Shown piece after piece: positions 4,432 through 58,157 of a stretch of DNA of 61,691 nt. The DNA comes from a virus. How positions within the stretch are numbered: the stretch's first letter is position 1; every line of letters starts with the position of its first letter. Both the position numbers and the translations under genes were made by a program. The stretch lies in IMG/VR virus record IMGVR_UViG_3300027782_006460, positions 1 through 61,691 of that record. One strand, given 5' to 3'. Under the pieces are notes generated by a model that saw nothing but the letters and a program-made list of their open reading frames with translations, was not told the DNA's origin and did not search any database.

Positions 4432-5209
4432 AACAATGATAATATTCGTAAGAAACGAAAAAGAAAAAATAAACAAAAAATTGTTACATGTTTGCAAAAA
4501 CAACAAAATAAGTTTTTTGTTTTTAAACTTTGGAAAAGAACTTAATTGCAAAAGTAAAAAATTAATAAATGTAAAATCTAAGTACATGAATAAAATACTA
4601 GAACGAATAGCTTTTAAAAAAAACCACAAACAATTTTTATTTGTAAATATTTCTGCTGATGAAAAATATTTATTAGAGACAATAGAAAGAACTTCTTGGT
4701 ACTATGAAAGATATAAAGAAAAAGCAGGAATTATTGATTTTACTACTAGTTGTAGTGCTTTTAAACAAATTATAACTGAAGAGCCAAGATTCTACCATAA
4801 AATAAGTTGTAATTTATACAAAACACATGCAACTAATACTTATTATTTTGCAATTGGCAGAGTTGTACTTTTTGAAGCATTTTCAAAACAAATAGAAACT
4901 TGTTTTTTTAAGAAAAAATTTGAATACTTGTTTTCATTTATATGCTTTTATAAAAAATTATTTATTTGCAAAGATACAACTTTTAAAATTCTTTTAGATA
5001 ATAAAAATTTATCTCGTCAAATGAAAAAAACAATAAATGTTTTTGAACTAGAAGAAAAACATTTTGCAAAATACATTAATTTTTATTTTATACTATTTTT
5101 AGAAATTTTAGTATTTATCGTATGGAAAATACCTTGTATAAGTTTTACTAAATCATCAAAAAGTTTAAGTATTTTAAGACCTATTTTAAAAATTAAAAAA
5201 TTAACTTAG
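4421..5209 (+). CDS. hypothetical protein of the glycosyltransferase island
   Basis: A 262-residue Lys/Phe-rich protein with no motif I recognise. A hydrophobic stretch at about 216-238 (FYFILFLEILVFIVW) could be a membrane segment near the C-terminus. It starts inside the preceding glycosyltransferase-like gene (11 nt overlap), so it is very likely co-translated. It ends in a 9-nt convergent overlap with the UDP-galactopyranose mutase gene. Its position suggests a glycan-related role, but no catalytic residues can be pointed to. Confidence 0.5.
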   Translation: MFDKTMIIFVRNEKEKINKKLLHVCKNNKISFLFLNFGKELNCKSKKLINVKSKYMNKILERIAFKKNHKQFLFVNISADEKYLLETIERTSWYYERYKEKAGIIDFTTSCSAFKQIITEEPRFYHKISCNLYKTHATNTYYFAIGRVVLFEAFSKQIETCFFKKKFEYLFSFICFYKKLFICKDTTFKILLDNKNLSRQMKKTINVFELEEKHFAKYINFYFILFLEILVFIVWKIPCISFTKSSKSLSILRPILKIKKLT

Positions 5210-8373: not shown

Positions 8374-8816
8374 TATTTGTTCCATCCTAACGAATAAATT
8401 ATATATGCTGAAACTAGGGTCATGATTACTTTGAAAATAATATCAAATGTTGATTTTAACTTTTCTTCAGTTGTTTTCTTAAATGTTTTAAGTTCTTTAG
8501 TATAGTTTTCATATTTTTGTAACTTAGAAACATGTTGTTCAAATTCATCTTCAAAAGAATTTAAATCATTTTTAACTTGATCTATTTTTTTAGCAATACA
8601 GGGAATTTCATGAAATTCTATAGCATTAATTTTAGTTATTAAAGCAGCATAATTATCTCTAATTTTTTCAAGTTTCTTATCAGTTTCACTTAATTGCTTG
8701 AAAACAGTTTTTACCCTTTCATCAACTCTTGTAGTTAAATCATGAATTTCAAGGATATAACTGTTAATCTGAAAGTTATCAGCATTATTTTCTTCATTGT
8801 TATTTTTAATTCCCAT
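8373..8816 (-). CDS. coiled-coil protein with C-terminal membrane anchor
   Basis: A 147-residue protein with a long predicted coiled coil (about 25-120, heptads of Leu/Ile/Val with charged partners) and one hydrophobic segment at the C-terminus (about 125-143, IIFKVIMTLVSAYIIYSLGW). This layout is like XhlA-type phage membrane proteins, and a lysis or envelope role is possible but not demonstrated. It has no ribosome site; AATAAATA lies exactly 4 nt before ATG 8816. It overlaps the next gene's start as TAATG. Confidence 0.6.
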   Translation of the reverse strand: MGIKNNNEENNADNFQINSYILEIHDLTTRVDERVKTVFKQLSETDKKLEKIRDNYAALITKINAIEFHEIPCIAKKIDQVKNDLNSFEDEFEQHVSKLQKYENYTKELKTFKKTTEEKLKSTFDIIFKVIMTLVSAYIIYSLGWNK

Positions 8817-14500: not shown

Positions 14501-17500
14501 CAGGATTTGGAGTAGCAGCTTCAATAAGCAGAATGGTTGAATGGATTGGAGAAGTTGGAAAAAGTGGAGTAGATGCAATTAGTAAAATGCCAGTAAGTCC
14601 AAGTGAACTAATTAAAGCTGTAGACAGCTTATCAGCAATTCTTGGGCCTGGTGCAAAATTAATAGGATATGTAGCAGCAGCAGCAGCAGGATTAGCTGGT
14701 GTTAGCGTTGGTGGTCTTGTAGGTGGTGTTGCTGTTGGAATTGGCCAAGGTATAGGATGGGTAATGAAACTTTTTACTGGTGGTGATAATATGGCAAGCC
14801 CTATTGCTGCCATAAAAGCTGTCATCGATAGTTTGTTTTCAGTTCTTTCTGAAGTGCCACAAGTAATAAAAAACTTAGAAAGCAAATATAGAATTTCTCC
14901 TGAAATTATTAAACAAAGTGCTACAACACTAGAAAAATATTCAGAATCGCCAAAAGGTTTAGGCAAAGCAATTAAAGCAATAGCAGATGAAGCAATTGCT
15001 TTAGCTCCAGGATATCAAAGTTTAAAAACTGCATCAAATTCAATTGGAAAAGCTGACACACCAGAAGTAGTTGCAGGACATTTAGAAAATTGTTTTGCTG
15101 TAATAGCTGGTCTTGCTATAGCAAGTCCTAAATTATTGTCTTCTTTACAAAACATAGATCCTTCAAATTTTAAAAAATTAAATGAATTTGTTAATGCATT
15201 TTCTTCAACAGCATTACCATTGTTTAATGGACTTGCTTCATTAGACCAAATTGTAAACAGTTCATCTTTTGACACAATTGAAAAAGCACAAGCATCTTTT
15301 GCCAAGGCTGCAAAAATAATAGAAAATGTTAAATCTTCCATTACATCAGTTATTATTGCAACTGCAACTATTTCACACGAAATGTATGAAATTACTAAAA
15401 ATATTCCTTTGGCTAAAGTAAAGGAAAGTTTAGACCTTGTTAAATCTATGGCAGATATCTTTTCTGAATTTACTGCAAACTCAAGTGAATTTGGAAAACA
15501 TTTAAATACTAAAAACTTACAAGAATTAAATAAAAGTCTTGGCAATGACAATTTGCCAAAAGTGTTAGATAATGTTTTTAAAAATGTTGAAGCAAGTTTA
15601 AATGCTACAAGAAAATATAAAATATCAAATATAGATTTGAAATCAACAGCCAGCAAAATTGAACAAATAGCAGTTTTGACAAAAGCAGTTGCAAGTTCAG
15701 CTGAATCTATGAGACAAATAAATACCTTGATGGCTGGGATTGACAAGCAAGATGCTTTGAAACCAATAAAAATAGAACCAAAGAAAGAAAAAGAATATGG
15801 TTTTACCATTGGCGATGAAATGTACAACACAGATGGTAGCTATAGAGGCAGAGTATCAGAACAACCAGTAGCTGTTCCAAAAAATGTTGCAACCAAAGAA
15901 ATTGGAACAAAACAAATTGAATCAAAACTAACCAAATTCTATGAAAATATTTTAGATAATTCAAAAGCCTTGATTGAAATTTCAAAGAAATACAAAGATG
16001 TAAATGTGGTTTCAATTGGGCCTGTTACTGCAATGGCTGAAAATTTAGGCAAATTAATGAATTCTTTGAAGACTTTAATAACCATCTTCAACAATGATAT
16101 TGCAGGGCCGATGAAGGAATTTGAAAAAAGTAAAGAAATGTTAATGATGGGTGAATATACAAAAACCGATCACTATAGTGGTTTACAGGGGTTTTTTCGT
16201 GGTGGCCCAACTAAAATTTACAAAGAGCAATCTGATATGGTACATAATTTCCATATACTCTTTAAAAATTTAATTGCCATCAATAATATTATAAATACTG
16301 AAATTGGTAGTTTGGTAGGAATGAATCCCGATAAAAGCAATTCTCTAGATAAAGTCTATGACAAACTAGCAATAATATCAAAAAACTTTCAAAAAGTTGG
16401 AGAGTTTTTTACATCCTTTCAAAAAGATATTATGCCGAGTCTTGATTTTGTTGAAAAAAATAAGGCAATGTTTGAAACCAAATATTATTCTGATGTAGAT
16501 GAAGCTGGTAATAAAATTGCATACTCTGATGCATCAAAAAACATATGGCAAGCCTTAGTAACCATGATGTATATCAATAGAGATTTAAATGTAGCATTCG
16601 ATACATTATTTCAAGAAGAGACTGGAAAAGATGCATCAGGAAAAATATCTGGTGTTGGCGACAAATTAATGTTAGTGTCAAAAAACTTTCAAAAAGTTGG
16701 AGAGTTTTTAACATTATTTCAAAAAGAAATTATGCCAAGTATTAATTTTGTTACAGAAAACAAGGCAATGTTTGCTACAAAATATTATGACAATAATGAA
16801 GCATTTTCAGAAGCATCAAATAATACATGGCAAGCATTAAAAACAATAATGTACATGAACAGAGATTTAAATGTAGCAATTACAGATTTAACTACTGAAG
16901 CTGGTGGAGAAGATGCATCAGGCAAAATATCTAAGCTTGGTGATAAATTAATGCTAGTAACCAAAAGCATGAGTTCGTTCAAAGATTTAATTACTATATT
17001 TGATGCTAATTTTCTTCAAACTATTAAAAACTTTAAACCTATAGAATTAGCAGATTTAGAAAATATTAAAAAATCAATACAAACTTCAATTGCAAATATT
17101 AAAAGTTCTATATTAGATGATTCTTTTTTCTCAGAAATTGAAGGTTTTATTGGTGGAATTCCTAACATTCCAAAATTAGATTTTACTTCGTTTATTGCTT
17201 TTTCCAAAGCTATTTCTACTGTTATAAATCAGTTCACTTCTTGTTTTGCTTTTTTAAATGAAGCAAAACAAGAAGTTGCAAAAACAGAACAAGTTTATCC
17301 TTCTGGAAGTAGTCAAACTTCTACTCCTATTGCAGCAATAGAAAAGAAATTACCAACCATAGCTGAAAATATTACCGCTATTAGAAAATTTTTCGATGGT
17401 GATTTTGTTCCATTGCTTACAAAGTTTTCTGAAATTGTTTCAGGATTTAAAAAAATTAATATAAGTGAAAAAGATTTTACTGAAGCAACAAAAATACTAG

Positions 17501-19536
17501 GTGGATATGGAACAATTATAAGAGAAGTTTCTAGTTTGCTAGAAAGCATAGGTATAATTGCATCAAACTTAAACGATGAAGTTGTTACAATAGACACACA
17601 AGGAATTAAAAAAACTGTATCTGTTGCTAATTATTTAAAAGATGCTCTTTCAGATAAAGGAACAAGTGACTTTGGCCAAATAATGTCAAGCTTGCCAAAT
17701 TTCATAATTAAAAATTTAATAGAACCATTTAGTAAATCTACAATTAGCATCAATCCTAAAAAAGTTGAAAAAATTGCAAAAATACTTAAAGCTACAAGTG
17801 AAGCAATTTCTGCATTAACTTCATTGTTTACTATATTGGGAACAGACCTTGATCCTGCCACAATAAAAGCAGCATCAGCTAAAATTGGACAATTAAAAGA
17901 AGTTGGCCCAAATGTACAAACCTTATATGGAGAGCTTAAAAATAGTGGGCCAGTAAATTATTTGATAGCAGATTTTGTTATAGCATTGATACAAAATGTT
18001 ATTGAACCACTTTCAATTTTAAATAAAGTTACAAATCCTAAGAAACTTACAAAAACAGCTGCGATACTAACATCTGTTAGTACTATAGCAAAAGATTTGC
18101 CTGTTTTGATAACTAATGTTAATGATTGTATTGGAAAACTAATGAAAGTAGATAATGGCAATCTTACTTTCATACAAGATGTAAGTGCTAAACTTGAAGA
18201 ATTTGGAGAGCAGTTACCTGAATTTGTTGTTAGTTTATACAATAATTTTATTATACCACTTGCTGCAATACCTATTTCAAGCAAATCTCTTGATAAAATA
18301 GCAAAGAAAATTACAAGTATTGCAACAATTGTAAATGCATTGCCAAGTTTAATTGAAAATTTAAGTACTAAACTACCTGATTTAATGAAAAACTTAGAAT
18401 CGGTTGATGCATCTTTAGGTGCAAAGCTTGGAGCAAAAGGCGAATCCTTTAGAACAGTTTTTATTGGCTTATTAAGTTTTATCATGCAAGGAGTAGTTGC
18501 ACCTTTGTTGATGGTTTCAGCAAGTCCTAAATTATTAGCAAAAGCATCATCTCAGATTAGTTCTTTGGCTACTTTATGTTCAAATTTAGGGCCAATATTT
18601 ATTGGATTTTTCAACAGCATGGAAGAACTTTTAAATTACATAGACACAAAATATGGCAATGATGCTTCTGAAAAGATTAGTCAATTAGCTGAAATATTTA
18701 ATAATGATTTCTTCAAGGGAACTTTTGTTAGTATTTCTGATGGAACAATTCAAAATCTAGAAAAACTTTTAGCACTTGAAAAATTAATAGATCAAATTAA
18801 ATCATTTGATGTATCAGCATTAACAAATATATTCAAGGATGTTGATACAAATGCTATTAATGCTGATCCTTTAGAAAATGCAATGATAAATCTTGGATTC
18901 CAATTAGATAGAATCATCAATACAATGCAAGATAACATCAACAAATTAACAATGAATGAAATGCCAGCATTTGATGTTTCTTCATTAACAGATATATTTA
19001 AAGACATTGATATAGAAGCTATTAGCTTAAGTCCTTTAGAAAGTGCATTGACAAATTTTGGGGAACAATTAGACAAAATACTTCAATTGATGACAGAAAA
19101 TGTTAGTAAAATAAATGAAATTAATTCTTTGGGGAATATTAAAATAAATAATGGAGAAGTTTCTACAGCTACTAATGCAGAAATGCCTGAGAACAAAAGT
19201 ACAGATATGTTTTCCCAAAACTTACAAATGCAAGAATCTTCTAAACCAAGCACAGAAAATATTGATGAATTATCAGAACTTACTGATATCAATGATGAAA
19301 TAAATGGAAAACAAACTGATATTATCAATGTTTTAGGCAATATATTAAAAGCATTAAACATATCAGTTCCCTCTAGAAATAATGCTGATCAAAGTCCATT
19401 TGATCAAAATAGTAATTTGCAAGATTACAAAGGAAAATTTTCAGCTAAATTACAAACTGGAACTATGAATAGATCTGATTATATTAAGGGCAATAATACA
19501 ATAGCACCAGCTACAGGTGGATTTTCATTAGGTTAA
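11551..19536 (+). CDS. tail tape measure protein
   Basis: A 2661-residue protein, by far the longest in the window, placed between tail-assembly genes and the baseplate genes as tape measures are. The N-terminal ~600 residues are helical and Ala/Lys/Glu-rich. About eight hydrophobic segments lie between about 635 and 1065 (e.g. GLGGLLLAAGIIFGAMMLL), as expected for DNA-channel-forming tape measure proteins. The C-terminal 1500 residues are long helical repeats, with a near-exact ~100-residue tandem unit (SKNFQKVGEF, at 16378 and 16678) and another pair, DVSALTNIFKD/DVSSLTDIFKD, near the end. At roughly 0.15 nm per residue the tail could approach 400 nm. Known role: sets tail length and is ejected with DNA. 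Confidence 0.9.
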   Translation: MAKQPLGPIDVNAVMQQILGGVSPPQAQPQANPANLGVKALLEELLKVNRDVLVEMKKSEKYVEKVAEVIKKLNDTATKEANPNKKSKDHNKVQKNDPNNKLRNAFNKQQSQKPRSYGDPRIGRERSSKVEPKNKLNFESGNQLFVGNENLMEGLVTNLKYAAEQLVNLNTGYRGLVGTVLEGVGAQVKYTQEVRAALYETGNVTSANQNLFKTLEDLENITKVTGASQEQAQENLIKYMKAGVRLDGNAVKYKEKLVNLTEAQLSTEKQLGLEAGDLFDTFNHLYQVGRLTEGELADVGRGMRDIAKQTGLTGKNLQQAMSSSQSIIDVMRKASTLTATAVKNVTQGIAAAEKLGVTEQAKTLLEAASSTTNLFFTASNQTKSLLFSAAASVGKVGDLQKGVLTRSKEGIKALSEGVTNVLKRFGVESMDAIDNLSDSAKMKLNLNLKAAFGLELGEVRGVVESLTEAGKGYGDRVADIEKRLKTNLTLEEKTSALEEKRRLATNQSLETLTVLDKAAVGAKNMDEALSKFGERRKEFEKDLQSLGLKGTNKEVIRGALQEAIKGIETATKKNLGITSSEIEKALDNPASFRELTAKLSKAETTNATKQKTQLDALTETNQYLQEIKTEIMKGTSGTISAFMSSAGVLGVIATSVAIIAASSYARNGFGKGAGKGATTAALTGADNLKTTPTTRVSKKSGNMPARKISAASANPPKSGVINGGAFKGYAGNFALGLGGLLLAAGIIFGAMMLLQKTGIEINEEKIIAVTKKIGILFAATIFLSTEILAFSLILKTMNKMMTVFNKGSFATLAAGAGMFLAMSVAVGLLGLGLNYLSGVVDQLGIDENKLIDTTKKLSILFACVGVLSLVMIAAAAPMTALGYGVIGTSGTLIAALAIGAVLFIVLSGVLLRLAMGIEELADTTSSMDIPLIEKTSAECTSIFYNIAKFSVALAAAGTAVLAGFAGGLIGTLSVGLDKIVSFLPGFGVAASISRMVEWIGEVGKSGVDAISKMPVSPSELIKAVDSLSAILGPGAKLIGYVAAAAAGLAGVSVGGLVGGVAVGIGQGIGWVMKLFTGGDNMASPIAAIKAVIDSLFSVLSEVPQVIKNLESKYRISPEIIKQSATTLEKYSESPKGLGKAIKAIADEAIALAPGYQSLKTASNSIGKADTPEVVAGHLENCFAVIAGLAIASPKLLSSLQNIDPSNFKKLNEFVNAFSSTALPLFNGLASLDQIVNSSSFDTIEKAQASFAKAAKIIENVKSSITSVIIATATISHEMYEITKNIPLAKVKESLDLVKSMADIFSEFTANSSEFGKHLNTKNLQELNKSLGNDNLPKVLDNVFKNVEASLNATRKYKISNIDLKSTASKIEQIAVLTKAVASSAESMRQINTLMAGIDKQDALKPIKIEPKKEKEYGFTIGDEMYNTDGSYRGRVSEQPVAVPKNVATKEIGTKQIESKLTKFYENILDNSKALIEISKKYKDVNVVSIGPVTAMAENLGKLMNSLKTLITIFNNDIAGPMKEFEKSKEMLMMGEYTKTDHYSGLQGFFRGGPTKIYKEQSDMVHNFHILFKNLIAINNIINTEIGSLVGMNPDKSNSLDKVYDKLAIISKNFQKVGEFFTSFQKDIMPSLDFVEKNKAMFETKYYSDVDEAGNKIAYSDASKNIWQALVTMMYINRDLNVAFDTLFQEETGKDASGKISGVGDKLMLVSKNFQKVGEFLTLFQKEIMPSINFVTENKAMFATKYYDNNEAFSEASNNTWQALKTIMYMNRDLNVAITDLTTEAGGEDASGKISKLGDKLMLVTKSMSSFKDLITIFDANFLQTIKNFKPIELADLENIKKSIQTSIANIKSSILDDSFFSEIEGFIGGIPNIPKLDFTSFIAFSKAISTVINQFTSCFAFLNEAKQEVAKTEQVYPSGSSQTSTPIAAIEKKLPTIAENITAIRKFFDGDFVPLLTKFSEIVSGFKKINISEKDFTEATKILGGYGTIIREVSSLLESIGIIASNLNDEVVTIDTQGIKKTVSVANYLKDALSDKGTSDFGQIMSSLPNFIIKNLIEPFSKSTISINPKKVEKIAKILKATSEAISALTSLFTILGTDLDPATIKAASAKIGQLKEVGPNVQTLYGELKNSGPVNYLIADFVIALIQNVIEPLSILNKVTNPKKLTKTAAILTSVSTIAKDLPVLITNVNDCIGKLMKVDNGNLTFIQDVSAKLEEFGEQLPEFVVSLYNNFIIPLAAIPISSKSLDKIAKKITSIATIVNALPSLIENLSTKLPDLMKNLESVDASLGAKLGAKGESFRTVFIGLLSFIMQGVVAPLLMVSASPKLLAKASSQISSLATLCSNLGPIFIGFFNSMEELLNYIDTKYGNDASEKISQLAEIFNNDFFKGTFVSISDGTIQNLEKLLALEKLIDQIKSFDVSALTNIFKDVDTNAINADPLENAMINLGFQLDRIINTMQDNINKLTMNEMPAFDVSSLTDIFKDIDIEAISLSPLESALTNFGEQLDKILQLMTENVSKINEINSLGNIKINNGEVSTATNAEMPENKSTDMFSQNLQMQESSKPSTENIDELSELTDINDEINGKQTDIINVLGNILKALNISVPSRNNADQSPFDQNSNLQDYKGKFSAKLQTGTMNRSDYIKGNNTIAPATGGFSLG
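16378..16709 (+). repeat. 300-nt in-frame tandem duplication inside tape measure gene
   Basis: A run of about 30 identical bases starting with tcaaaaaactttcaaaaagt at 16378 recurs at 16678, exactly 300 nt later, encoding SKNFQKVGEF in both copies. The rest of the 100-residue units is diverged but alignable (IMPSLDFVEKNKAMF / IMPSINFVTENKAMF). This indicates growth of the tape measure by in-frame duplication. Confidence 0.8.
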
Positions 19537-41466: not shown

Positions 41467-42033
41467 ATGAGTCTTTTCCAAGTTAAATTAAATAATAGTG
41501 TTCAAGGCAAGCTCGATCTTAATCCAACTACAAATATACAACTTAATACGAGCATTCAACGAACTGCATATATTACTTCTTGTAGTGGTAAGATTATGGA
41601 AATGGCAGATGGTACTGAATTTTATGGAAGTAATTATTACAAACAGTTTGTACCAGCACCAATAGGAACTGCAACTGAAGAAACATCTTTCTTAGAAATT
41701 ATTGAGGATGATGGTGGTGTTTGCATAGATAACGAACCATACAGCATTCCAATTGTAACAGCTGTTTCAACTGTTACCACAAGTTTTGTAACCGCTGTAG
41801 ATTACATAACAAATTTCAATGGTGTTGCTAATTTTATTCAAATTACCAACAATGGAGGATCAGCAGTAAATGTAAAACTAAATGGATCTACGGCAGCTGT
41901 ATTTTCCATTGATAAAAGTGCTACTCAAGTATTTAACAATGGTGACATTAATGTTTCTTCTATTGCATTTAATGCAGCAACAGCAAATTCTGCTTCTATT
42001 CAAATTATTGCTGGTGTTACTATTGCTTGTTAA
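41467..42033 (+). CDS. putative virion decoration/structural protein
   Basis: A 188-residue protein rich in Thr, Ser, Ala, Asn and Val with few charges. The first ~75 residues are a probable anchor; residues 90-188 look like an all-beta, Ig-like module (VNVKLNGSTAAVFSID, INVSSIAFNAATANS). It has a late-type promoter box, a strong AAAGGAG ribosome site and a 13-bp terminator of its own, which is the pattern expected for an abundant virion protein. No family is recognised. Confidence 0.6.
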   Translation: MSLFQVKLNNSVQGKLDLNPTTNIQLNTSIQRTAYITSCSGKIMEMADGTEFYGSNYYKQFVPAPIGTATEETSFLEIIEDDGGVCIDNEPYSIPIVTAVSTVTTSFVTAVDYITNFNGVANFIQITNNGGSAVNVKLNGSTAAVFSIDKSATQVFNNGDINVSSIAFNAATANSASIQIIAGVTIAC

Positions 42034-42094: not shown

Positions 42095-43051
42095 ATGACA
42101 TTATTCAAAAACACTTTTGAAAAAGACATTAACTTGGAAAGTTATTGCAAAAAAAGTAAACAAATTTTGTTCCGAAGAAGAACAGGAGGTTTTGGTGATA
42201 TATTAATGATGAGAATGATTTTTGAAGATATTAAAAAAACTTATCCAGAATTCTCAATTCATTGGGCAATGCCTGTAAAATACCATTCTATTGCAAGCCA
42301 TCCTTATGTTGATGAAATCATAGATTACGAAAAAATAAACAGAAAAAATTATATTAATTCAATAAATTTAAGTGATATTTGCATTGCTTATGAATCGGTA
42401 CATAAAAAAGAATGTTTGCTGCACAGAAGTGATATTTGGGCTAAAAAATGTGGAATTGAATTAAAAAATCATAATATGCATTTGAATCCAAATGTAGAAT
42501 CTATAGAAAAAATGAAAACATTAATGGAAGAAGTAAAAAAATTTAAAAACGGAAAAACAATAATTTTTTGTCCTTTTTCAGCAAATCAAGCAAAAGATTT
42601 GCCTGATTTTCAAATAAACTTTATCATTAATTTTTTAGAAAAAATAAAAATAAATTGTTTGGTTCTTCACGATCAAAAAGATTTAAGGCTTTATGATAAA
42701 AATTATCCTATTTTAACTGTTAATAATTTCAAAGATGTAATAGCAACACATCACTTAGCAGATGCAGTAATATCAGTTGATACTGGCCACTTACATTGTG
42801 CTGGTGGTCTTAAAAAGCCTCTTTTAGGTATTTTTGGATATATTGACGGAGATATTTATTGTAAATATTACGATTGCATATTAATTCAAAAACACCGAAA
42901 AAATAATAATTGGCCATGTGATGGGCCTTGTTGGAATTATTTTAATTGCCCAATTCCTCATGATACCCCTCAAAAACCCTGCATGACTATGATTACAGAA
43001 GAAGAAATAACAGATAAAATAAACTTATTACTAGATAAATATAACCTTTAG
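42095..43051 (+). CDS. glycosyltransferase family 9 (heptosyltransferase-like)
   Basis: A 318-residue GT-B enzyme. RRTGGFGDILMMRMIFEDIK (28-47) is the GT9 N-terminal 'G-D-x-x-x-x-x-P/R-x-x-x-x-x-K' helix; HPYVDEII follows; KTIIFCPFSANQAKDLP (about 150-166) starts the second Rossmann domain; ISVDTGHLHCAGGLKKPLLGIFG (about 226-248) is the donor-binding 'S-x-D-T-G-x-x-H-x-A' motif. GT9 enzymes normally add heptose to LPS core. It lies just after a terminator and 7 nt before the gene at 43059. A Cys-rich C-terminal part (CDGPCWNYFNCPIP) is unusual. Confidence 0.8.
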   Translation: MTLFKNTFEKDINLESYCKKSKQILFRRRTGGFGDILMMRMIFEDIKKTYPEFSIHWAMPVKYHSIASHPYVDEIIDYEKINRKNYINSINLSDICIAYESVHKKECLLHRSDIWAKKCGIELKNHNMHLNPNVESIEKMKTLMEEVKKFKNGKTIIFCPFSANQAKDLPDFQINFIINFLEKIKINCLVLHDQKDLRLYDKNYPILTVNNFKDVIATHHLADAVISVDTGHLHCAGGLKKPLLGIFGYIDGDIYCKYYDCILIQKHRKNNNWPCDGPCWNYFNCPIPHDTPQKPCMTMITEEEITDKINLLLDKYNL

Positions 43052-43058
43052 GAAATTT

Positions 43059-43292
43059 ATGGCATCATATATCAATCATGACAATATAAAAATAATCACA
43101 AAAGATGGAGAAATTAAAATTCATCTAAGCATTGATTTAAATGTAAATATGAATGGAGAATTTAATTCATCTGGTTACTTAAAAAAAAACAATGAAGAAA
43201 CTATACTAAAGACAGAAGAAGAAAAAACTATCTGGCAAGTACCAGATTTTTCAGCTGTAAAAAACAAAGTAAACTTTGGAAAGCAAGAATGA
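43059..43292 (+). CDS. small protein preceding MreB-like gene
   Basis: A 77-residue protein: a beta-hairpin N-terminus (IKIITKDGEIKIHLSIDLNV), a variable linker, and a C-terminal TIWQVPDFSAVKNKVNFGKQ motif. Small proteins ending in 'W-x-[IV]-P-D-F ... F-G-K' occur in other phages with no assigned function. GGAAATTT precedes ATG. It lies 13 nt before the MreB-like gene and could be its partner; the C-terminal motif may be an interaction peptide. Confidence 0.5.
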   Translation: MASYINHDNIKIITKDGEIKIHLSIDLNVNMNGEFNSSGYLKKNNEETILKTEEEKTIWQVPDFSAVKNKVNFGKQE

Positions 43293-43305
43293 AAGAAGTG
43301 TTAAT

Positions 43306-44313
43306 ATGAAAGTAATATCTTTTGATGTTGGAACTTACAATTTAGTTTGTTGTCAGAGAAACAAAGAAAATAATTTTTCTTATAAAAAAGAAATTAATGC
43401 ATTTTTAGAACTTCCAACTGAAAATAAATTTGTCTTTAACATGATGAAAAATGCTGGAGTTCCCCTTATTGAAAAAGATAAGGTAGCATATGCTTTGGGA
43501 GAAGCAGCAGTAAACATGGCCTATACTCTGCCTAGTTTAGAATTAAAAAGGCCAATGTCAGATGGTTGTGTAAACCCAAAAGAAAAAGATGCTTTTCAAA
43601 TTCTTTCTATTATGATTCATAGCTTAATTGGCGATTTAGATGATAATGGATTATTGTATTACTGTATTCCCTCGAATGCAATAAATCAAGAAACTGATGC
43701 TGACTATCACAGTAAGGTATTAGAAGCCATATTTAATGCTTATGAAAGCACTAATGGCAATAAGATAGAAGCAAGACCAATCAACGAAGCATTAGCTCTT
43801 GTATATGCAGAAGCAGCAGATAAGAACTATACTGCTATTTCAGCCTCTTTTGGTGGGGGCATGGTTAATATTTGCTTTGCAATGTATGGAAATCCAATTT
43901 TTCAATTTGCCATTGTAAATTCTGGAGATTGGATTGACAAACAAGCTGCAAGAGCTACTGGGGAAAGTGCTACTTTTATAAACAAAGAAAAAATGAAAGT
44001 TAGCTTGAACAAAGATCCAAAAAATTTAATTGAAAGAGCTATTCAAACACAATATAAATTAATGATAGAAAAAACAGTAACCATGATAAAAAATGGCTTA
44101 GCAAATGCTGGTAAGTCTGTAAGAATATCTGATCCAATTGATTTTATTATTGCTGGTGGTACTTCAAGCATCGATGGATTTACTGAAGTATTTGAAGAAG
44201 TAATTAAAAGTGCTGAATTAAGCATTCCAATTGGAAAAGTCATTAGACCTCATGACCCTCTGTTTTCAGTAGCAAGAGGTTGTTTAATAGCTGCGGAGAT
44301 GTCCACCAAATGA
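43306..44313 (+). CDS. MreB/actin-like ATPase homologue
   Basis: A 335-residue protein, the length of MreB. The actin-fold motifs occur in order: phosphate-1 SFDVGTYN (5-12), KRPMSDGCV (81-89, compare MreB RPMKDGV), the strand YYCIPSN (118-124, compare VCVPVG), PINEALALVYAEA (158-170, compare EPMAAAIGAG), phosphate-2 SFGGGMVNI (181-189), SGDWID (206-211), adenosine motif IIAGGTSSIDGF (281-292), and DPLFSVARGCLIAAEM (317-332, compare DPLTCVARG). The Asp of phosphate-2 is replaced by Ser, so hydrolysis may differ. ATG 43306 is chosen because AAAGAAG lies 8 nt upstream. It may form filaments for positioning phage DNA or act on host shape. Confidence 0.8.
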   Translation: MKVISFDVGTYNLVCCQRNKENNFSYKKEINAFLELPTENKFVFNMMKNAGVPLIEKDKVAYALGEAAVNMAYTLPSLELKRPMSDGCVNPKEKDAFQILSIMIHSLIGDLDDNGLLYYCIPSNAINQETDADYHSKVLEAIFNAYESTNGNKIEARPINEALALVYAEAADKNYTAISASFGGGMVNICFAMYGNPIFQFAIVNSGDWIDKQAARATGESATFINKEKMKVSLNKDPKNLIERAIQTQYKLMIEKTVTMIKNGLANAGKSVRISDPIDFIIAGGTSSIDGFTEVFEEVIKSAELSIPIGKVIRPHDPLFSVARGCLIAAEMSTK

Positions 44314-44765
44314 AAATTACAAAAACAGTTTCAGATTTGGGAATAGCAGCATATATTTTGATGCAAGGATATGATTTATTAGGCAAAAAAGAAAAAGATT
44401 TTCATTTTGAAGTAGATCAAAACGATGAAAGAAAATTTGATGAATTAAAAATAAGCTATCTTGTAAGTGAATTTCATTATTTTGATCATTGTTTGATGGG
44501 AATTAAAAAATTAGAAGATTTCAATCATCCAATTGAATCTAAGTATTATGTTACAGATTTAGGTGCAGCAGCATATTTATTAATGCACAAATTTAGAATA
44601 TTAGGCAGAAAAGGAAAAAGTTATTTTTTTGAAATCTTTTCAAACGAAGAAAACGATCAATTTCAAGACTTAAACCTACAATATGCCAATAGTGAATTTC
44701 ACAATTTTGATTCAAAACTAATGTCTTTGAAAAAGATAGGAAGTTTTTTGAGACATAAAAAATAA
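44310..44765 (+). CDS. tandem DUF5659-like domain protein
   Basis: A 151-residue protein built of two copies of a ~70-residue unit: TVSDLGIAAYILMQGYDLLG ... FDHCLMGIKKLEDF and YVTDLGAAAYLLMHKFRILG ... FDSKLMSLKKIGSF. The pattern 'T/V-x-D-L-x-x-A-A-Y-L-x-x-x-G-x-x-L' followed by a 'F-x-F-E' strand matches DUF5659-type small domains of unknown function found in phages and plasmids. The start overlaps the MreB-like stop (ATGA), with GGAG 11 nt upstream, so the two are co-translated. Confidence 0.7.
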   Translation: MKITKTVSDLGIAAYILMQGYDLLGKKEKDFHFEVDQNDERKFDELKISYLVSEFHYFDHCLMGIKKLEDFNHPIESKYYVTDLGAAAYLLMHKFRILGRKGKSYFFEIFSNEENDQFQDLNLQYANSEFHNFDSKLMSLKKIGSFLRHKK

Positions 44766-44773
44766 CTACTTTT

Positions 44774-45637
44774 ATGGAAACTTCTAAAATTGCAAACATC
44801 ATTGGTAAAATCAATGAAAAACTTGAAAAAATGAAAAGACAATCAGATAATATATTTACATCTGAAGATGAAAATGATTTCTTTCAAAATTTTTTAAATT
44901 ACTGCACAAATAAAGACAATAAAACATACGCAAAAAAAACTTTTTTTGACAAGATAAAAAACTGGTATCATAAGTTTCTAGGTGAAAACAGAAATATAAA
45001 TTTAGAAGAATTTAAATTTATAAATGAAGAAGCAAATCTTTTAAGTGAAGCAATATGCGACAAGGAAAGTCTTGAACAAGTAAAAAATATATTTTCAACT
45101 TGGAAAAAAGGATTTATATACAATTACAAAACAAAATTTAATTTTGATGTAAATTACATTCAAAGCGAATTAAGTAATATTTTAAAAATTGCAAGTCAAG
45201 ATAAACCTAGCTATATGGATTTCATTTCACAAGAAAATCCCGAAAAGAAACCAGAAGTCACACAAGATAAAAAAAGAACCAAACAACCGCCTATAGAAGT
45301 TTCTAAGCCATCTGAAAAAGTTGCAAAATCATCTGTAAGAGTTCCCAAACCATCATCTATAAGAGTTCCTAAACCATCATCTATAAGAATTCCTAAACCA
45401 TCATCTATAGAAGTTCCCAAACCATCATCTATAGAAGCTCCCAAAGAAGCAGAAATTCCAAATAATTTCCAAGATGAATTAGATTTAATTACAAAAGAAA
45501 TAGAAAACTTGGGAATAGTAATTACAGATGATGCCAAAGAAAAAATAACAAGAATTTTAAAATCAAAAAGAAATAGTAGCTTTATAGATTTGATTAATTC
45601 TGGTGATGTTAAAGAAATAAAATTCTTACTTAATTAA
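44774..45637 (+). CDS. hypothetical protein with VPKPSSI repeats
   Basis: A 287-residue protein. The N-terminal ~150 residues are helical and charged; a Pro/Lys/Ser linker at about 165-225 holds four near-identical 8-residue units (V-P-K-P-S-S-I-R/E); a C-terminal domain (about 232-287, LDLITKEIENLGIVITDD) is helical. The linker could be a flexible multivalent tether. It is the third gene after the MreB-like gene with only a 9-nt gap, so it may belong to the same functional unit. No family is recognised. Confidence 0.55.
   Translation: METSKIANIIGKINEKLEKMKRQSDNIFTSEDENDFFQNFLNYCTNKDNKTYAKKTFFDKIKNWYHKFLGENRNINLEEFKFINEEANLLSEAICDKESLEQVKNIFSTWKKGFIYNYKTKFNFDVNYIQSELSNILKIASQDKPSYMDFISQENPEKKPEVTQDKKRTKQPPIEVSKPSEKVAKSSVRVPKPSSIRVPKPSSIRIPKPSSIEVPKPSSIEAPKEAEIPNNFQDELDLITKEIENLGIVITDDAKEKITRILKSKRNSSFIDLINSGDVKEIKFLLN
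45341..45436 (+). repeat. 24-nt tandem repeat, four copies, in coding frame
   Basis: Units start at 45341, 45365, 45389 and 45413, each encoding V/I-P-K-P-S-S-I-R/E; a partial fifth unit follows. Copies differ by only a few bases, which indicates recent expansion. Confidence 0.9.
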
Positions 45638-45875
45638 CTTTTTCTTCTGGCTTTTTCATTACGACTTTTTCTTCTGCAATACAAATTACAGAATGCATGT
45701 TGAAATAAGTTTTACATTTAGTACCAGGATGTTCTGTTAAAATGCCAGAATCACTAATACTCAAAACTTTGCCTATAAAATAAGCTAAGTTTTGATCTTC
45801 TGTGAAATTTCTATTTGTTTTGCCAACAAATATAGTGCACACTTTATCGACAAAAAAACTTAAGTTTGTATTCAT
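45630..45875 (-). CDS. small beta-rich protein coupled to primase
   Basis: An 81-residue protein. The section YFIGKVLSISDSGILTEH followed by CKTYFNMHSVICIAEEK has the strand order of a small Sm-like/SH3-like barrel. Its start overlaps the primase stop by 4 nt, and a TTTAAATA box lies exactly 4 nt before its ATG inside the primase gene, so it may be made both from the primase mRNA and from its own near-leaderless transcript. No family is assigned. Confidence 0.55.
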   Translation of the reverse strand: MNTNLSFFVDKVCTIFVGKTNRNFTEDQNLAYFIGKVLSISDSGILTEHPGTKCKTYFNMHSVICIAEEKVVMKKPEEKVN

Positions 45876-46876
45876 AATATATTTAAAAAATCTAAATTTT
45901 CCAAAGGTTTTTCATTCTTAATAACATATGTTTTTAAGATATTCGATGAATGCTTAATAAGCATTTCATTCCAATCTTTAAAACCAACTGCTGGTCTTAT
46001 TATAGTCAATCTATCACTTTTGCCTGTTAAATTATACGCATTTAATTTTGTCTTCATGTTTTTTATAGCTTGAGTTCCAGCACTATCTAAGTCAAGACAC
46101 AAACAAACTTCAAAATTAGCAAGCATAGCAGCTTGTATATCAGATAGATTTTTACCACCACAAGCCATAGCATCAAATCCTGCCAAACTCAATGAACAAG
46201 CATCAAACTCACCTTCTGTTAAGTATATTTTATTAGTTTCAATTCTTTTAGGCAAGTACAAAACATCTTCTTTTCCAACTCCTATTGTTTTTGATGGCCC
46301 TAAGTACCTTAATTTTGTATCGTATAAAGCTCTTGTATTAAAATAAATCAAAGAAGAAAAATCAAAATCAAAGTATGGAATTACTATCCTTCCTTTGTAC
46401 TTTCCATTAGTGCAAACAAAAAAGTTGTTATAACTAATTTTTCTACTTTTCAAATAATCTCTAGCCAATTTTTTATAATAATCATCAGAATCATCAATAA
46501 TTTCACAATTATCAGGAATTTTTATTTCTATTTTTTTGTTTCTCAAACTGTAATCTGTTTCTTGATAATTAAAAATTTGATTTAAATTTTTATCTGATGC
46601 TCGAATTGTTCCTTTGAGTATTTTCAATGCTTTTGAAAAATCACATTTTTCAATATCCATGACTAAATTTAACAAAGTGCCTTTTTTATCTGTTTTAAAA
46701 CAATGATATACTCCAAAACCAATGTTTTTTTTCCCACCTTTAGGATTACACCACAAATGAAATTTATTGTCTTTTTCTGCAAAAAAAGAATTTAACCTGA
46801 TCTCATCACCTTTGATAATTACTTTATCAAATCTAGATTTTGCCCAATTTATAAAAGCTTCAGAATCAATTTGCAT
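45872..46876 (-). CDS. DNA primase (DnaG-type, TOPRIM)
   Basis: A 334-residue protein. The N-terminal zinc-binding region is degenerate but recognisable: FHLWCNPKGGKK (39-50) with YHCFKTDKKGTLLNLVMD (57-74). The TOPRIM domain carries the catalytic Glu in YLTEGEFDACSL (218-229) and the D-x-D in CLDLDSAG (260-267), followed by GFKDWNEML (298-306). Length is like T4 gp61 (342). Known role: making RNA primers for lagging-strand synthesis with a helicase not in this window. It is divergent from the nuclease gene at 46905, 28 bp apart. Confidence 0.85.
   Translation of the reverse strand: MQIDSEAFINWAKSRFDKVIIKGDEIRLNSFFAEKDNKFHLWCNPKGGKKNIGFGVYHCFKTDKKGTLLNLVMDIEKCDFSKALKILKGTIRASDKNLNQIFNYQETDYSLRNKKIEIKIPDNCEIIDDSDDYYKKLARDYLKSRKISYNNFFVCTNGKYKGRIVIPYFDFDFSSLIYFNTRALYDTKLRYLGPSKTIGVGKEDVLYLPKRIETNKIYLTEGEFDACSLSLAGFDAMACGGKNLSDIQAAMLANFEVCLCLDLDSAGTQAIKNMKTKLNAYNLTGKSDRLTIIRPAVGFKDWNEMLIKHSSNILKTYVIKNEKPLENLDFLNIL
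45880..45887 (-). promoter_or_regulatory. late-type promoter box TTTAAATA, 4 nt before ATG
   Basis: Minus-strand TTTAAATA-TATT-ATG, with the same spacer TATT as the exact consensus box at 32669. It lies within the 3' end of the primase gene. Confidence 0.4.
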
Positions 46877-48781: not shown

Positions 48782-49117
48782 TTAATCATCTTCGTCTTCA
48801 TCGTCTTCATCTTCATCGTCTTCATCGTCTTCGTCTTCATCTTCATCATCTAAATTATCCCAATCGTCTTCATCTTCATCTTCATCTTCGTCATCGTCTT
48901 CATAATCTTCGTCATCGTCTTCATAATCTTCATCTTCATCTTCATCTTCGTCTTCATCTTCATCTTCATCTTCGTCTTCATCTTCGTCTTCGTCTTCGTC
49001 TTCATCTAAATTTTCCCAATCGTCATCGTTAAAATCACTTTCGCTATTGTAACTATTGACTTCTTGGTAATACAAAGACAATTTTTCTTTATTATCAATA
49101 TTGAATGACAAAAGCAT
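48782..49117 (-). CDS. extremely acidic Asp/Glu-repeat protein
   Basis: A 111-residue protein. The first ~35 residues are ordinary (MLLSFNIDNKEKLSLYYQEV); the rest is almost entirely Asp and Glu in (ED)n and (DDED)n runs broken by rare Trp-Asp/Glu-Asn-Leu and Tyr-Glu. The DNA is a tandem TCTTCA/TCTTCG hexamer array (minus-strand GAAGAT/GAAGAC). It has a strong ribosome site (AAAAGGAG, 6 nt before ATG) and a terminator, so it is probably well expressed. It could be a DNA mimic, a charge-based chaperone for basic proteins, or a repeat expansion. Confidence 0.7.
   Translation of the reverse strand: MLLSFNIDNKEKLSLYYQEVNSYNSESDFNDDDWENLDEDEDEDEDEDEDEDEDEDEDEDEDEDYEDDDEDYEDDDEDEDEDEDDWDNLDDEDEDEDDEDDEDEDDEDEDD
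48785..49010. repeat. GAAGAT/GAAGAC-type microsatellite in coding sequence
   Basis: A hexamer-based tandem array (tcttca/tcttcg on the plus strand) codes for Asp-Glu repeats in the acidic gene. Slippage at such arrays would change protein length in frame. Confidence 0.85.
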
Positions 49118-52828: not shown

Positions 52829-54670
52829 ATGGCAAATTTCAAGACTAATTATTTAAAAAAATACGATAAAAACTTTTTCCACTTTGATTTTAATCAATTT
52901 GAAATACCAACAACTGAAACTTTACAAGATTTAAATAACTTAAATTTTGAAGATCAACAAAAAGAAATTTTAAAATGCACTAAAAGTTTTAGTTACTTTT
53001 GCCACAAATATGTCAAAATATTACATCCAACAAAAGGACTAATACCGTTTGTAATATACAAATATCAAAACAAATGCATTCAAGAATATGAACGCTCAAG
53101 ATTTAACATCATAAGTAAATTTAGACAGGGTGGACTTACTACTGTTACATTATTGTACGGAATGTGGCGGTGCATGTTTAAACTTGATCAACAAATCATG
53201 TTGTTATCAAAAACAGACAGAGAAGCTACTATTATCGGCATGATTGTAGATCGTGCAGTTGAATATTTACCTGAATGGTTGAAACCAAATAAAGATAGTG
53301 GCAAGTGGAATGACCATTTAAAACAATTCATGGAAACTGGAGGCAACATGATGTTTTATTCTCCAGAAGCAGCCAGAGGTAAAGCAACAAGCTTGCTTAT
53401 AATTGACGAAGCAGCGTTTATCCCTGACATGGAAACGCATTGGAAAGCTATGTGGCCTGTACTTAGCACAGGGGGTAATTGCGTAGTTATTTCAACTGTA
53501 AATGGTGTTGGTAATTGGTATGAAGAAACATATTCTGCTGCTAAAGAAAAATTAAATATGTTTAATGTTATTGATTTAGATTATTGGGAGCATCCTGATT
53601 ACTGTGATTCAAAAAATCCTAACTGGTCAATAGAACAAAAAGCACAATTGGGAGAAAGAGGTTTTCTACAGGAAGTTTTAAGAGTATTTTTAGGATCTGG
53701 TGAAACTTATATTTCAAGCAATAAACTTACTGAATTAGACAGAACTACAAAAAAGAAAATACCATATAAAAAAATACTTCCTAGTTGGGCAAATAGATCT
53801 GATATATCTGAAAATGATATGGGAAAAGGTGCTTTGTGGATCTGGAAAGAACCTATTGATGGACAAGAATACATAGCTGGACTAGATTCTGCCGAAGGAA
53901 TTGGAGATGGTGGAGATAATTCTTGTTTGCAAATTATAAATCAAAACACATTAGAACAAGTAGCTGAATTTTATAGCAATAATATTCCAACTCATGAATT
54001 TGCTCAAGTATCAAAAGAAATTGCTAGTTTTTACAACAAAGCATTAATTGTTGTTGAAGATATGAGCACAGGTGGGGCCATACTAAATTCTTTATTACAT
54101 GAATATTTTTACGAAAACTTATTTTACAATAACGCTCACACAAGCAAAAATCCTAAACCTGGTGTTAAAATAACTGTTCAAAACAGACCTATTATACTTC
54201 AAACATTTCAACAAAAAATCTACAATGATTCTTTGAAAATAAACTCTATGAGACTTGTCAATGAATTAAAAACTTTTGAATACAATGTAGTTTCAAAAAA
54301 GGCACAAGCACAAAGAGGAAAGCATGATGATGCAATCATGGCTACTGCATTAGCTTTATATGCGAGAGATAGCATGTTCAACAACATGTCCGCATTTAAC
54401 ATGAAGTCATCAAATTCAGGCAATGTTGTTGTTCAGAGCCAAACTGTTAATCAATTAAGGGAAGAGCTTAAAGAAAGTTTGAATAAAATGATTGTTTTTA
54501 ATGATGATAATTATGATTTCGACAACGATCCAAATGATCTAGATGAACAAACAAAAGAAATGCTGATAAACAAATACAGAAACAAGAATGACATACTGAA
54601 AGAATTTGGCTGGAGTATTTTAATTACAATTAATGTATATTTAACCAATATTGCGAATCAAATATTTTAA
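52829..54670 (+). CDS. terminase large subunit (gp17-like)
   Basis: A 613-residue packaging motor. The ATPase domain has a deviant Walker A, KFRQGGLTT (97-105, Lys of GKT replaced but K/R upstream), motif LLSKTDREA, and Walker B LLIIDEAAFI (199-208) with catalytic Glu. The RNase H-like nuclease domain has YIAGLDSAEG (about 349-358), VVEDMSTGG (about 407-415) and KHDDAIMATALA (about 495-506), giving the three acidic residues. It is the DNA translocase and headful nuclease at the portal. It is followed 10 nt later by a small basic gene; a small terminase subunit is not recognised nearby. Confidence 0.93.
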   Translation: MANFKTNYLKKYDKNFFHFDFNQFEIPTTETLQDLNNLNFEDQQKEILKCTKSFSYFCHKYVKILHPTKGLIPFVIYKYQNKCIQEYERSRFNIISKFRQGGLTTVTLLYGMWRCMFKLDQQIMLLSKTDREATIIGMIVDRAVEYLPEWLKPNKDSGKWNDHLKQFMETGGNMMFYSPEAARGKATSLLIIDEAAFIPDMETHWKAMWPVLSTGGNCVVISTVNGVGNWYEETYSAAKEKLNMFNVIDLDYWEHPDYCDSKNPNWSIEQKAQLGERGFLQEVLRVFLGSGETYISSNKLTELDRTTKKKIPYKKILPSWANRSDISENDMGKGALWIWKEPIDGQEYIAGLDSAEGIGDGGDNSCLQIINQNTLEQVAEFYSNNIPTHEFAQVSKEIASFYNKALIVVEDMSTGGAILNSLLHEYFYENLFYNNAHTSKNPKPGVKITVQNRPIILQTFQQKIYNDSLKINSMRLVNELKTFEYNVVSKKAQAQRGKHDDAIMATALALYARDSMFNNMSAFNMKSSNSGNVVVQSQTVNQLREELKESLNKMIVFNDDNYDFDNDPNDLDEQTKEMLINKYRNKNDILKEFGWSILITINVYLTNIANQIF

Positions 54671-55616: not shown

Positions 55617-58157
55617 ATGCCATCTCCAATTTGGGCTGATTTTTATAAAACATTCACATATGCTTTTTCTGAAGATCCTTTAACTAAGAAAATAGCAACC
55701 AAAGATATTATTGGTGCAGGGATCTCACAACCTGATTCAGTTCCTTCATTAAGCCCAGATGGTGGGTTTTACGGTAGTCAAGATCAAAGAATAGTTAGAT
55801 TCAGAGAAAGCAATGATTTTATTGATTTATCAACTATTGCAAATAGAATGTCTCGTTATAAAGAATATGATCGTTTAAGAGCTATGCCAGAAATAGAAAC
55901 TGTTTTAAACATTTATTCAGATGAGGCTTGTATTTCAGGTGATACAAAAATTTCAACTCCTTTTGGTTTGAAAACTATGAAGGAACTGTACGAAACAAAA
56001 AAAAATGAAAAATTTTTAGTTTATTGTTATGATTCTGAGAAGAAAGATTACACATTGGGTTGGGCATATGATCCAAGAATTACAAAAACTAGCCAAACTA
56101 TTAAAGTTTATTTTGACAATGCTTCTTTTTTAGAATGTACAGAAGATCACAAAATATTAAAAAGAGATGGAAGTTGGATAGAAGCTGGCAAACTCAAACC
56201 TTTTGATGAAATAATGCCTTTTTACAGAATAAAACCTAATCAAGATTTAACAGAATCAAAAATCTCACAATATCCAAGAATTTTCACACATAATAAAGGT
56301 TGGATTCACGAAAGACAATTTGTTGATGAGTTTAAAGCAGAAAAAGACATTGATAAGTATGATCTTATTAATATGACCACCAGATTGATATCTGCTGGCA
56401 TGAAAATAAAAGATGTTTCAATGAAAACAAAAGTTCACAGACGAACTACTCAATATAGATTGAAAAATCATGGTTTTTCATTTAAGGAAATCAAATATTT
56501 AAAAACATTTAAAGACAGAAGAAAAGTTTTAAGCGTAGAAAAAGGTTCCATTCAAGAAGTATATGACCTTACTGTTGAAAAACATCATAATTTTGCAACA
56601 GATTCAATTATTGTACACAACTGCCAAAGAAACAACGATAACAATGTTTTTGATATTCGTTGTGAAAATCAAGATGTCAAAGAAGAGTTGACCTTTTTGT
56701 TTTTCCACAGAAGCATGTTGAATATGAATCGTAGATTATGGTCTGATTTTAAAAATCTTTTAGCTCATGGAGATATATTTTGGGAAATTGTTATTAATCA
56801 AGAAAATCCTACAGAAGGTATTTACAAAATAACAGGATTGCCAGCAGATTCTATGTACAGAATTGAAACGACAAAAGGAAATTGCATAGAATTTCAACAA
56901 AGTAAAGAAGGGCCAGATTACACATCTTTACTTTCCTCTCCTGTTGTTGACACAGATGATGCAAAATTAATGAGTGCAACTGCAATAAGGTTTGCTCCAG
57001 AACAAATTGTTCATGTGCGGATTGGAGAAGACAGAAAAACATTTTATCCTTATGGTGTTAGTGTAATTGAGCCAGCAAGAGGGCCAGCACAACAATTAAG
57101 ATTATGCGAAGATGCAATGTTAGTTTATAGATTATCCAGAAGTACTGAAAGAAGAATTTTTTATATAGATGTTGGTACTTTACCACCATTTAAAGCAGAA
57201 GCTTTTATTGAAAGAATGAAATCACAGTTTAGAAAACGAAAAGCTACAACAAGTAATCTTGGTGGAGGTGGTGCATCATCCATAGATGAAAGATGGCATG
57301 CTCCTGCAATTGACGAAGATTTTTGGCTACCCACAAGACCTAATTCACAAACTAAAATTGAAACACTACCAGGAGCTACTAATCTTGGTGAGGTATCTGA
57401 TGTTAATTACTTCAAAGAAAAATTATTTATTTCCTTAAATTTCCCCTTAAGTTATTTTCAAGCAAATGATTTCTCAATAACTAAAATGACATTGAGTTCT
57501 CAAGATAGCAGATTTGCTAGACTTGTTGAAAGATTTCAATCAGCGGTAGAAGATGGCATTTGGGAAATAGCTCATAGACATTTAAGGCTTAAAGGCTATC
57601 CCAAGGAAAGCTATAATGACCTTATGATTAAAATGACACCTCCAAGTGATTGGAGAGAATTAAGCAGAGCAGATGTTATAAGTGCAAGAATTACAAATGC
57701 ATCAACAATAAAATCTTCCTTGTTGTTATCTGATTATGACATCATAACAAAATATTTAAAGTATTCTGTAGATGATACTCAAGAAATGTTAGCAAGACTT
57801 AAAATTCAAAAACTTGAAGATGCCAAAATGCAAATATTAGGACAAAATCCTCAATTGCTAGGAATTGGAATTCCAGCAGATGAACAATCAAAAGAAAATC
57901 CAGAAATTGGAGCAACACCAGAAGGGCCAAATCCAGATTTATCTCCTGAAGGAGAATTGCCAGCTTTGAATGACAAAGAATCAGAATTGCCTTCTGTTCC
58001 TGAAATAGGCAAACAAAGTTCAGGAAAGTCAAACCAACCAAGTTCATTGCCAGACCCAACTCCTGAAGAAATAGAATTATTCGACATGGGCATTGAAGAT
58101 TACGCAGCTGAACAAGACAATGAAGAAATAGATTTTAGCGAAGATGAATATTTTTAA
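55617..58157 (+). CDS. portal protein (gp20-like) interrupted by an intein
   Basis: An 846-residue precursor. The host part (1-104 joined to 336-846, about 615 residues) is a T4-type portal: MPEIETVLNIYSDEA|CQRNNDNNVFDI, then LFFHRSMLNMNRRLWSDFKN, GDIFWEIVIN and LRLCEDAMLVYRLSRSTERRIFYIDVG, typical of the wing and stem, followed by SLNFPLSYFQ. The inserted C105-N335 has intein blocks (see separate entry). The C-terminal ~100 residues are acidic and Pro-rich. GAGGAAATTT precedes ATG 55617. Known role: dodecameric ring for DNA entry; a working portal would require splicing. Confidence 0.9.
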   Translation: MPSPIWADFYKTFTYAFSEDPLTKKIATKDIIGAGISQPDSVPSLSPDGGFYGSQDQRIVRFRESNDFIDLSTIANRMSRYKEYDRLRAMPEIETVLNIYSDEACISGDTKISTPFGLKTMKELYETKKNEKFLVYCYDSEKKDYTLGWAYDPRITKTSQTIKVYFDNASFLECTEDHKILKRDGSWIEAGKLKPFDEIMPFYRIKPNQDLTESKISQYPRIFTHNKGWIHERQFVDEFKAEKDIDKYDLINMTTRLISAGMKIKDVSMKTKVHRRTTQYRLKNHGFSFKEIKYLKTFKDRRKVLSVEKGSIQEVYDLTVEKHHNFATDSIIVHNCQRNNDNNVFDIRCENQDVKEELTFLFFHRSMLNMNRRLWSDFKNLLAHGDIFWEIVINQENPTEGIYKITGLPADSMYRIETTKGNCIEFQQSKEGPDYTSLLSSPVVDTDDAKLMSATAIRFAPEQIVHVRIGEDRKTFYPYGVSVIEPARGPAQQLRLCEDAMLVYRLSRSTERRIFYIDVGTLPPFKAEAFIERMKSQFRKRKATTSNLGGGGASSIDERWHAPAIDEDFWLPTRPNSQTKIETLPGATNLGEVSDVNYFKEKLFISLNFPLSYFQANDFSITKMTLSSQDSRFARLVERFQSAVEDGIWEIAHRHLRLKGYPKESYNDLMIKMTPPSDWRELSRADVISARITNASTIKSSLLLSDYDIITKYLKYSVDDTQEMLARLKIQKLEDAKMQILGQNPQLLGIGIPADEQSKENPEIGATPEGPNPDLSPEGELPALNDKESELPSVPEIGKQSSGKSNQPSSLPDPTPEEIELFDMGIEDYAAEQDNEEIDFSEDEYF
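55929..56621 (+). mobile_element. intein within the portal protein (231 aa)
   Basis: It runs from Cys105 (TGT 55929) to Asn335 (AAC ends 56621), with Cys336 as the +1 extein residue. Block A is CISGDTKISTPFGLKTMKEL, block B is LECTEDHKILKRDGSW (T-x-x-H), block F is VLSVEKGSIQEVYDLTVEKHHNF, and block G is SIIVHN followed by C. The central ~100 residues (about 205-300) hold HNKGWIHERQFVDEF and an HTH-like DVSMKTKVHRRTTQYRLKNH, perhaps a reduced homing endonuclease DNA-binding module. No LAGLIDADG motif or full HNH site is visible. Confidence 0.9.

Follow-up and report, generated by a model that had tools for sequence, protein, structure and literature searches.

A phage gene of 335 codons encodes an actin homologue of the Volactin family with a predicted actin fold, an assignment that is well supported, and it lies within a set of small phage genes that accompany it across a large clade of phages. 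What seems new here is that the Volactin family, not known from phages, has a phage member and that this member comes with a conserved set of genes of its own. The gene was found in a 61.7-kb fragment (61,691 nt, classed as linear), hereafter the window. On the strength of its T4-type terminase, T4-type portal and baseplate wedge genes, the window phage is classed as a T4-like myophage. Four plus-strand ORFs occupy positions 43059-45637, exactly where the earlier note had placed an MreB-like gene and three coupled genes. The features of the locus and its surroundings are as follows (strand after the coordinates).

41467-42033 (+): conserved upstream protein, 188 aa, present in 76 of 83 loci
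42095-43051 (+): glycosyltransferase family 9 gene (PF01075, E=5.9e-7), immediately upstream of the module; syntenic in part of the clade
43059-43292 (+): P2, 77 aa, partner candidate; N-terminal beta-rich stretch ending NxNxN, variable linker, C-terminal W-x-[IV]-P-D-F ... K-[ILV]-x-F-G-K
43306-44313 (+): Volactin-family actin, 335 aa, coordinates including the stop codon (PF25216, E=2.3e-60)
43846-43869 (+): phosphate-2 loop SFGGGMVN of the actin, residues 181-188, with Ser for the usual Asp; intein site in four relatives
44310-44765 (+): P3, tandem DUF5659 protein, 151 aa (PF18903, E=2.4e-5)
44774-45637 (+): P4, 287 aa, fast-evolving, with a conserved N-terminal part and a disordered linker
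45328-45447 (+): 24-nt tandem repeat encoding the [VI]PKPSSI linker of P4 (repeat analysis); lineage-specific
45872-46876 (-): DNA primase (phrog_47, E=9.1e-34), used as an independent clade anchor
52829-54670 (+): terminase large subunit, T4-like type (genome context)
55617-58157 (+): T4-type portal protein gp20 (PF07230, E=2.3e-72) with an intein (PF14890, E=4.5e-12) near its N-terminal side

Elsewhere in the window, surface-sugar and tRNA genes encode a carbamoyltransferase (1164-2612), a UDP-galactopyranose mutase (5201-6283) and a polyA-polymerase/CCA-type nucleotidyltransferase (7114-8385), a single ORF of 2661 aa spans 11551-19536, and a 111-aa protein (48782-49117) consists over its greater part almost only of Asp and Glu.

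Family, fold and motifs of the 335-residue protein

The protein matched the Pfam Volactin profile (PF25216) with 205 bits against a cut-off of 35, and profile positions 3-321 covered residues 4-330, that is, its full length. The description of the protein as MreB-like stood in part: an actin of the polymerising kind is indicated by the fold matches given below, while the nearest family is Volactin (205 bits) and not MreB (20 bits). The MreB profile (PF06723, MreB_Mbl) remained under its curated cut-off of 27 bits, a six-frame search reported no match to it, and the phosphate-2 Asp is replaced by Ser181; membership of MreB was therefore rejected. The motifs DVGT, RPMSDG, GDWID, AGGTS and DPLFSVARG are all present. 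Among 14 control genomes, the Volactin profile exceeded its cut-off only in Haloferax volcanii, and a tblastn search recovered haloarchaeal homologues from large plasmids of Haloarcula and Natrinema (E=3e-46, about 31% identity), the Haloarcula one scoring 447 bits on the Volactin profile. Nothing significant was found in PHROGs for any of the four module proteins.

The AlphaFold2 model (pLDDT 91.4, pTM 0.89) returned Mbl, MreB, the BeeR filament and MamK as its best PDB fold matches (E about 1e-15, TM about 0.6-0.7), and the best 50 matches of this predicted structure comprised filament actins and actins in complexes. Since no sugar kinase occurred among these 50, a sugar kinase or other non-polymerising ASKHA enzyme, the outcome that the earlier note had held against its own proposal, was rejected. 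The predicted actin fold likewise agrees with the claim that the protein is not a tubulin of the PhuZ kind. The protein thus shares its predicted fold with MreB, MamK and BeeR but differs from them in sequence (14-18% identity over the fold alignment), in its MreB profile score and in Ser181. In a viral structure library, no close fold match was found, the best being only 12% identical.

In the volactin alignment, little or no variation is seen in phosphate 1 (D7, G9, T10; DxGT), in GDWID or in the adenosine-motif GG. The replacement of the phosphate-2 Asp by Ser, correctly seen from the window sequence, recurs in every phage row, in both haloarchaeal rows and in 36 of the 37 cellular rows; E. 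coli MreB was included in this alignment as outgroup only. The phage protein also carries the phosphate-2 signature of the cellular members, S-x-G-x-G-[ML]-x-N. As phage, haloarchaeal and cellular rows have the Ser in common, it is a signature of the whole Volactin family and not a phage oddity, and its interpretation as the mark of a dead ATPase or as a phage invention was rejected because cellular volactins have it too. ATP hydrolysis by the phage protein is only putative, since the position of the putative catalytic Glu is E or D in phages and unconserved in cellular volactins. The founding member and the one studied in vivo, H. volcanii volactin (HVO_2015), forms dynamic, ParM-like filaments there (PMC10869688); with it the phage protein shares the full-length profile match, the phosphate-2 sequence S-x-G-x-G-M-[TV]-N and the order of motifs, whereas it differs from the haloarchaeal volactins in being only about 31% identical to them, phage-encoded and clustered with P2, P3 and P4. 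Taking family, predicted fold and conservation together, we consider it likely that the phage volactin forms an ATP-dependent filament.

In four relatives, the volactin gene is interrupted by an intein placed directly after Ser181, within the phosphate-2 loop (L086:5369-7507, L243:11699-13831, L246:14298-16430 and L252:7022-9172). LAGLIDADG and intein-splicing domains were identified by Pfam in the three that were tested (L086, L243 and L252), and on inspection by eye L246 follows the same pattern. Since inteins preferentially occupy conserved positions in essential proteins, these insertions are consistent with, though no proof of, an important role for volactin.

The conserved module and its candidate partner proteins

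The module is tightly packed: 7 nt of intergenic DNA precede P2, 13 nt separate P2 from volactin, the start of P3 overlaps the volactin stop codon as ATGA (44310-44313), and P4 starts 8 nt after P3. Such spacing suggests that the genes are co-transcribed. ORF coordinates, Pfam and repeat analysis bore out the four coupled genes, the ATGA overlap, the duplicated DUF5659-like protein and the VPKPSSI linker of the earlier description. The two halves of P3 correspond to an internal 103-nt repeat with 71% identity and appear as two similar halves in its model (pLDDT 95.7), for which no PDB fold match was found under E 0.1. P2 belongs to no Pfam or PHROG family.

Across 83 loci, volactin was present in 83, P3 in 81 and P2 in 79, a degree of conservation that excludes chance. 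The order P2-volactin-P3 was seen in about 80 loci, with volactin identities of 60-83%, and the order P2-volactin-P3-P4 is kept across the clade; conservation of the neighbours, on which the original proposal depended, thus extends for P2 and P3 to essentially all related phages. Because these loci had been selected through volactin, which biases the picture, the search was repeated from P3 and from the primase. When anchored on P3, it located volactin no more than 3 kb away in 79 of 80 loci; the remaining locus is cut by the end of its stretch. Anchored on the primase, it found volactin in 36 of 40 loci; among the remaining four, two lie on contigs that end near the site, one has volactin elsewhere, and one is locus L250. 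The latter, a 42-kb contig carrying P3 (L250:12445-12894) without volactin, is the one clear exception to the module. Within the primase-anchored set, volactin was more conserved than the primase in all 36 loci, with median identities of 66% for volactin, 47% for P3, 43% for the exonuclease, 41% for the primase and 35% for P2; no gene tested in the locus was more conserved than volactin.

The C-terminal W-x-V-P-D-F motif reported for the 77-residue protein proved to be general: a motif of the W-x-[IV]-P-D-F type is found in 78 of 79 copies of P2, and FGK in all 79. No P2- or P3-like gene occurs beside the cellular volactins examined, unlike the phage gene, and all hits of the corresponding HMMs are phage loci or the phage-like contig L086. 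Because they accompany the phage volactin most constantly and were absent next to its cellular counterparts, P2 and P3 are, on this comparison, the best candidates for phage-specific volactin partners.

P4 is less uniform. At its place, 76 loci have an ORF of at least 140 aa, most with an N-terminal motif like RG[LV]WDR[FM]KN..SN.WHG, and similarity over the full length is confined to the window and its near-identical relatives L001 and L002. The gene set proposed around the actin therefore held clade-wide for P2 and P3 but not for the VPKPSSI repeat, which is private to the closest relatives and was rejected as a core feature; what the clade has in common in P4 is its N-terminal part alone. 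Many P4 relatives begin with MLxFKEYRN...LxE[A] (for example L044:5329-7230 and L012:11524-13005), a start that we take to resemble the T4 capsid-targeting sequence with its prohead-protease site. It occurs in 17 of 56 P4 homologues as compared with 11 of 909 other ORFs; P4 of the window lacks it. The concept of such a capsid-targeting sequence is described in PMC3012670.

Possible roles of the volactin module

We propose that volactin, binding ATP, would form dynamic filaments in the infected cell, with two to three co-transcribed phage proteins acting as its partners. P2, through its tethered C-terminal W-x-[IV]-P-D-F/FGK peptide, and P3, through its tandem DUF5659 domains, would bind or regulate the filament, while P4 might link it to a cargo; the filament would act late and position or move phage DNA or capsids, in the place that PhuZ has in other large phages. 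Against these roles, neither P2 nor P3 resembles a known adaptor, P3 has no PDB fold relative, and L250 carries P3 in the absence of volactin. To this overall reading, a phage-encoded filament with phage partners and a late task in positioning or moving DNA or capsids, we give about an even chance; polymerisation, partner binding, timing and cargo are all inferred. A late role in positioning or transport is suggested by the virion genes around the module, by the capsid-targeting-like starts of P4 homologues and by eight large related records (225-595 kb) in which no tubulin/FtsZ domain (PF00091) was found. As to timing, the module lies between tail/baseplate genes and the terminase/portal block, and the filament is likely to be late for this reason. 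The T4 late-promoter octamer TATAAATA occurred 11 times in the window against 14 expected, and none of these precedes the module; late-promoter control was accordingly rejected, which leaves gene position as the sole argument for late timing. A more complete version, in which tubulin-less huge T4-like phages run an entire actin transport system, with a volactin filament, P2 as peptide-tethering adaptor, P3 as a regulator of new fold and P4 as capsid-associated linker carrying capsids or genomes, is advanced only tentatively.

Comparable in setting is PhuZ of the nucleus-forming jumbo phages, also a phage filament in very large phages and by analogy likely equivalent in role; PhuZ is, however, a tubulin and phage volactin an actin. 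With no PF00091 domain in the eight volactin-bearing records and an actin fold in the window protein, a tubulin/PhuZ partner or identity was rejected. Haloferax volactin functions in disk shape, whereas a late positioning role is inferred for the phage protein.

The main alternative, possible but rather doubtful, is that the filament works early and not late, in DNA segregation or replication positioning of the ParM/AlpC kind, with P2 or P3 coupling a site on the phage DNA to it. The actin AlpC and its adaptor AlpA of prophage CGP3 in Corynebacterium glutamicum work in this manner and are needed for efficient phage DNA replication (PMC4446434), volactin filaments are ParM-like in their dynamic instability (PMC10869688), and the replication genes for primase and exonuclease lie just downstream of the module. 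AlpC is likewise a phage-encoded actin with a co-transcribed partner (PMC4446434), co-transcription being suggested here by the spacing, although CGP3 is a prophage and the window derives from a T4-like large phage. The adaptor AlpA binds DNA and has its site upstream of the operon, but no such site was seen at the phage volactin module: only the 7 nt before P2 are intergenic, and the 6.3-kb module region holds no centromere-like array, its only sizeable repeats lying inside the P3 and P4 coding sequences. P2 and P3 moreover matched no DNA-binding family, and P3 gave no PDB fold match. The missing centromere-like site weakens an AlpC-like role.

It is unlikely that the protein is a non-polymerising actin-fold ATPase, serving as an assembly chaperone or regulator of virion proteins whose clients would be P2, P3 and P4. 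Actin-fold proteins include the Hsp70s, the gene sits among structural genes, and the enrichment of capsid-targeting-like starts among P4 homologues would fit such a function as well. Yet the best profile and fold relatives form filaments, and in the model the 335 residues make up the actin core alone, with no Hsp70 substrate-binding domain. More improbable still is an action against the host, in which the phage actin would disturb its MreB cytoskeleton or its shape, perhaps by co-polymerising with MreB; the fold related to MreB and the effect of volactin on H. volcanii cell shape (PMC10869688) might suggest this. The identity to MreB is only about 14-18%, the model starts directly at the first strand and lacks an N-terminal helix like the membrane-binding helix known in some MreBs, and a gene directed against the host should differ from host to host, while volactin is more conserved than any other gene that was compared here. 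That the gene is a cellular contaminant or an artefact of annotation, suggested by the occasional occurrence of the same contig type in bacterial MAGs (L086), can be dismissed given the at least 110 virus contigs with the gene, its constant synteny with primase and exonuclease and its presence in two huge-phage records.

Distribution of volactins in phages and cells

Close relatives of the window volactin are encoded by at least 110 IMG/VR contigs, and a phage collection added LR756511 (595 kb, 62% volactin identity) and LR745208 (485 kb, 31%). Relatives of the window phage measure 225-595 kb, the largest being 527, 533 and 595 kb. A tree of 63 volactins united the clade's 23 phage rows in one group (support 100/99) on a long stem and put LR745208 elsewhere; volactin was thus apparently acquired by phages on two separate occasions. 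The nearest row outside the clade, L087, is a 7-kb contig from an alphaproteobacterial MAG whose position in the tree depends on a long branch. Among cellular genomes, the Volactin profile exceeded its cut-off in 111 of 294 Planctomycetota (loci L088-L092, L097-L101 and L104-L128), for whose volactin-family actins no paper was found. It was rarer in the phylum of the L087 MAG (16 of 249 genomes) and nearly absent from that of a Verrucomicrobiales MAG, where 1 of 145 genomes had a match, to a truncated piece.

Among phage-encoded actins, AlpC is a known example, and much work has been done on phage tubulins; it was the latter (PhuZ) that changed ideas on the organisation of the infected cell by large phages. 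If the proposed reading is true, an actin counterpart, present almost throughout a large clade of huge phages and extremely conserved there, would mean that phages have organised infected cells with actin as well as with tubulin. Phages of the clade probably assemble an internal skeleton of their own during virion production. Known from its description in a haloarchaeon, the Volactin family now also takes in many Planctomycetota, some further bacteria and two or more lineages of phages. Volactin-binding proteins are as yet unknown (PMC10869688), and P2, P3 and P4 are candidates for this role. The main text of a survey of huge phages mentions tubulin and not actin (PMC7162821). No description of a phage volactin was found in the open-access literature, from which preprints are mostly missing, so that a description may exist undetected; seven papers mention volactin, and to judge by title and abstract none of them deals with phages. 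This agrees with the earlier note, to which no described system with this gene set was known.

The second, separately placed phage volactin (L082:9926-10969, LR745208.1), in the 485-kb phage, is accompanied by neither P2 nor P3, and its neighbours gave no confident match to any structural family. Phage-type volactins were also seen on two contigs binned to Neisseriaceae (L086) and Verrucomicrobiales (L093) MAGs; as the phage module is present on L086 too, this contig is probably mis-binned phage DNA or a hint of the host.
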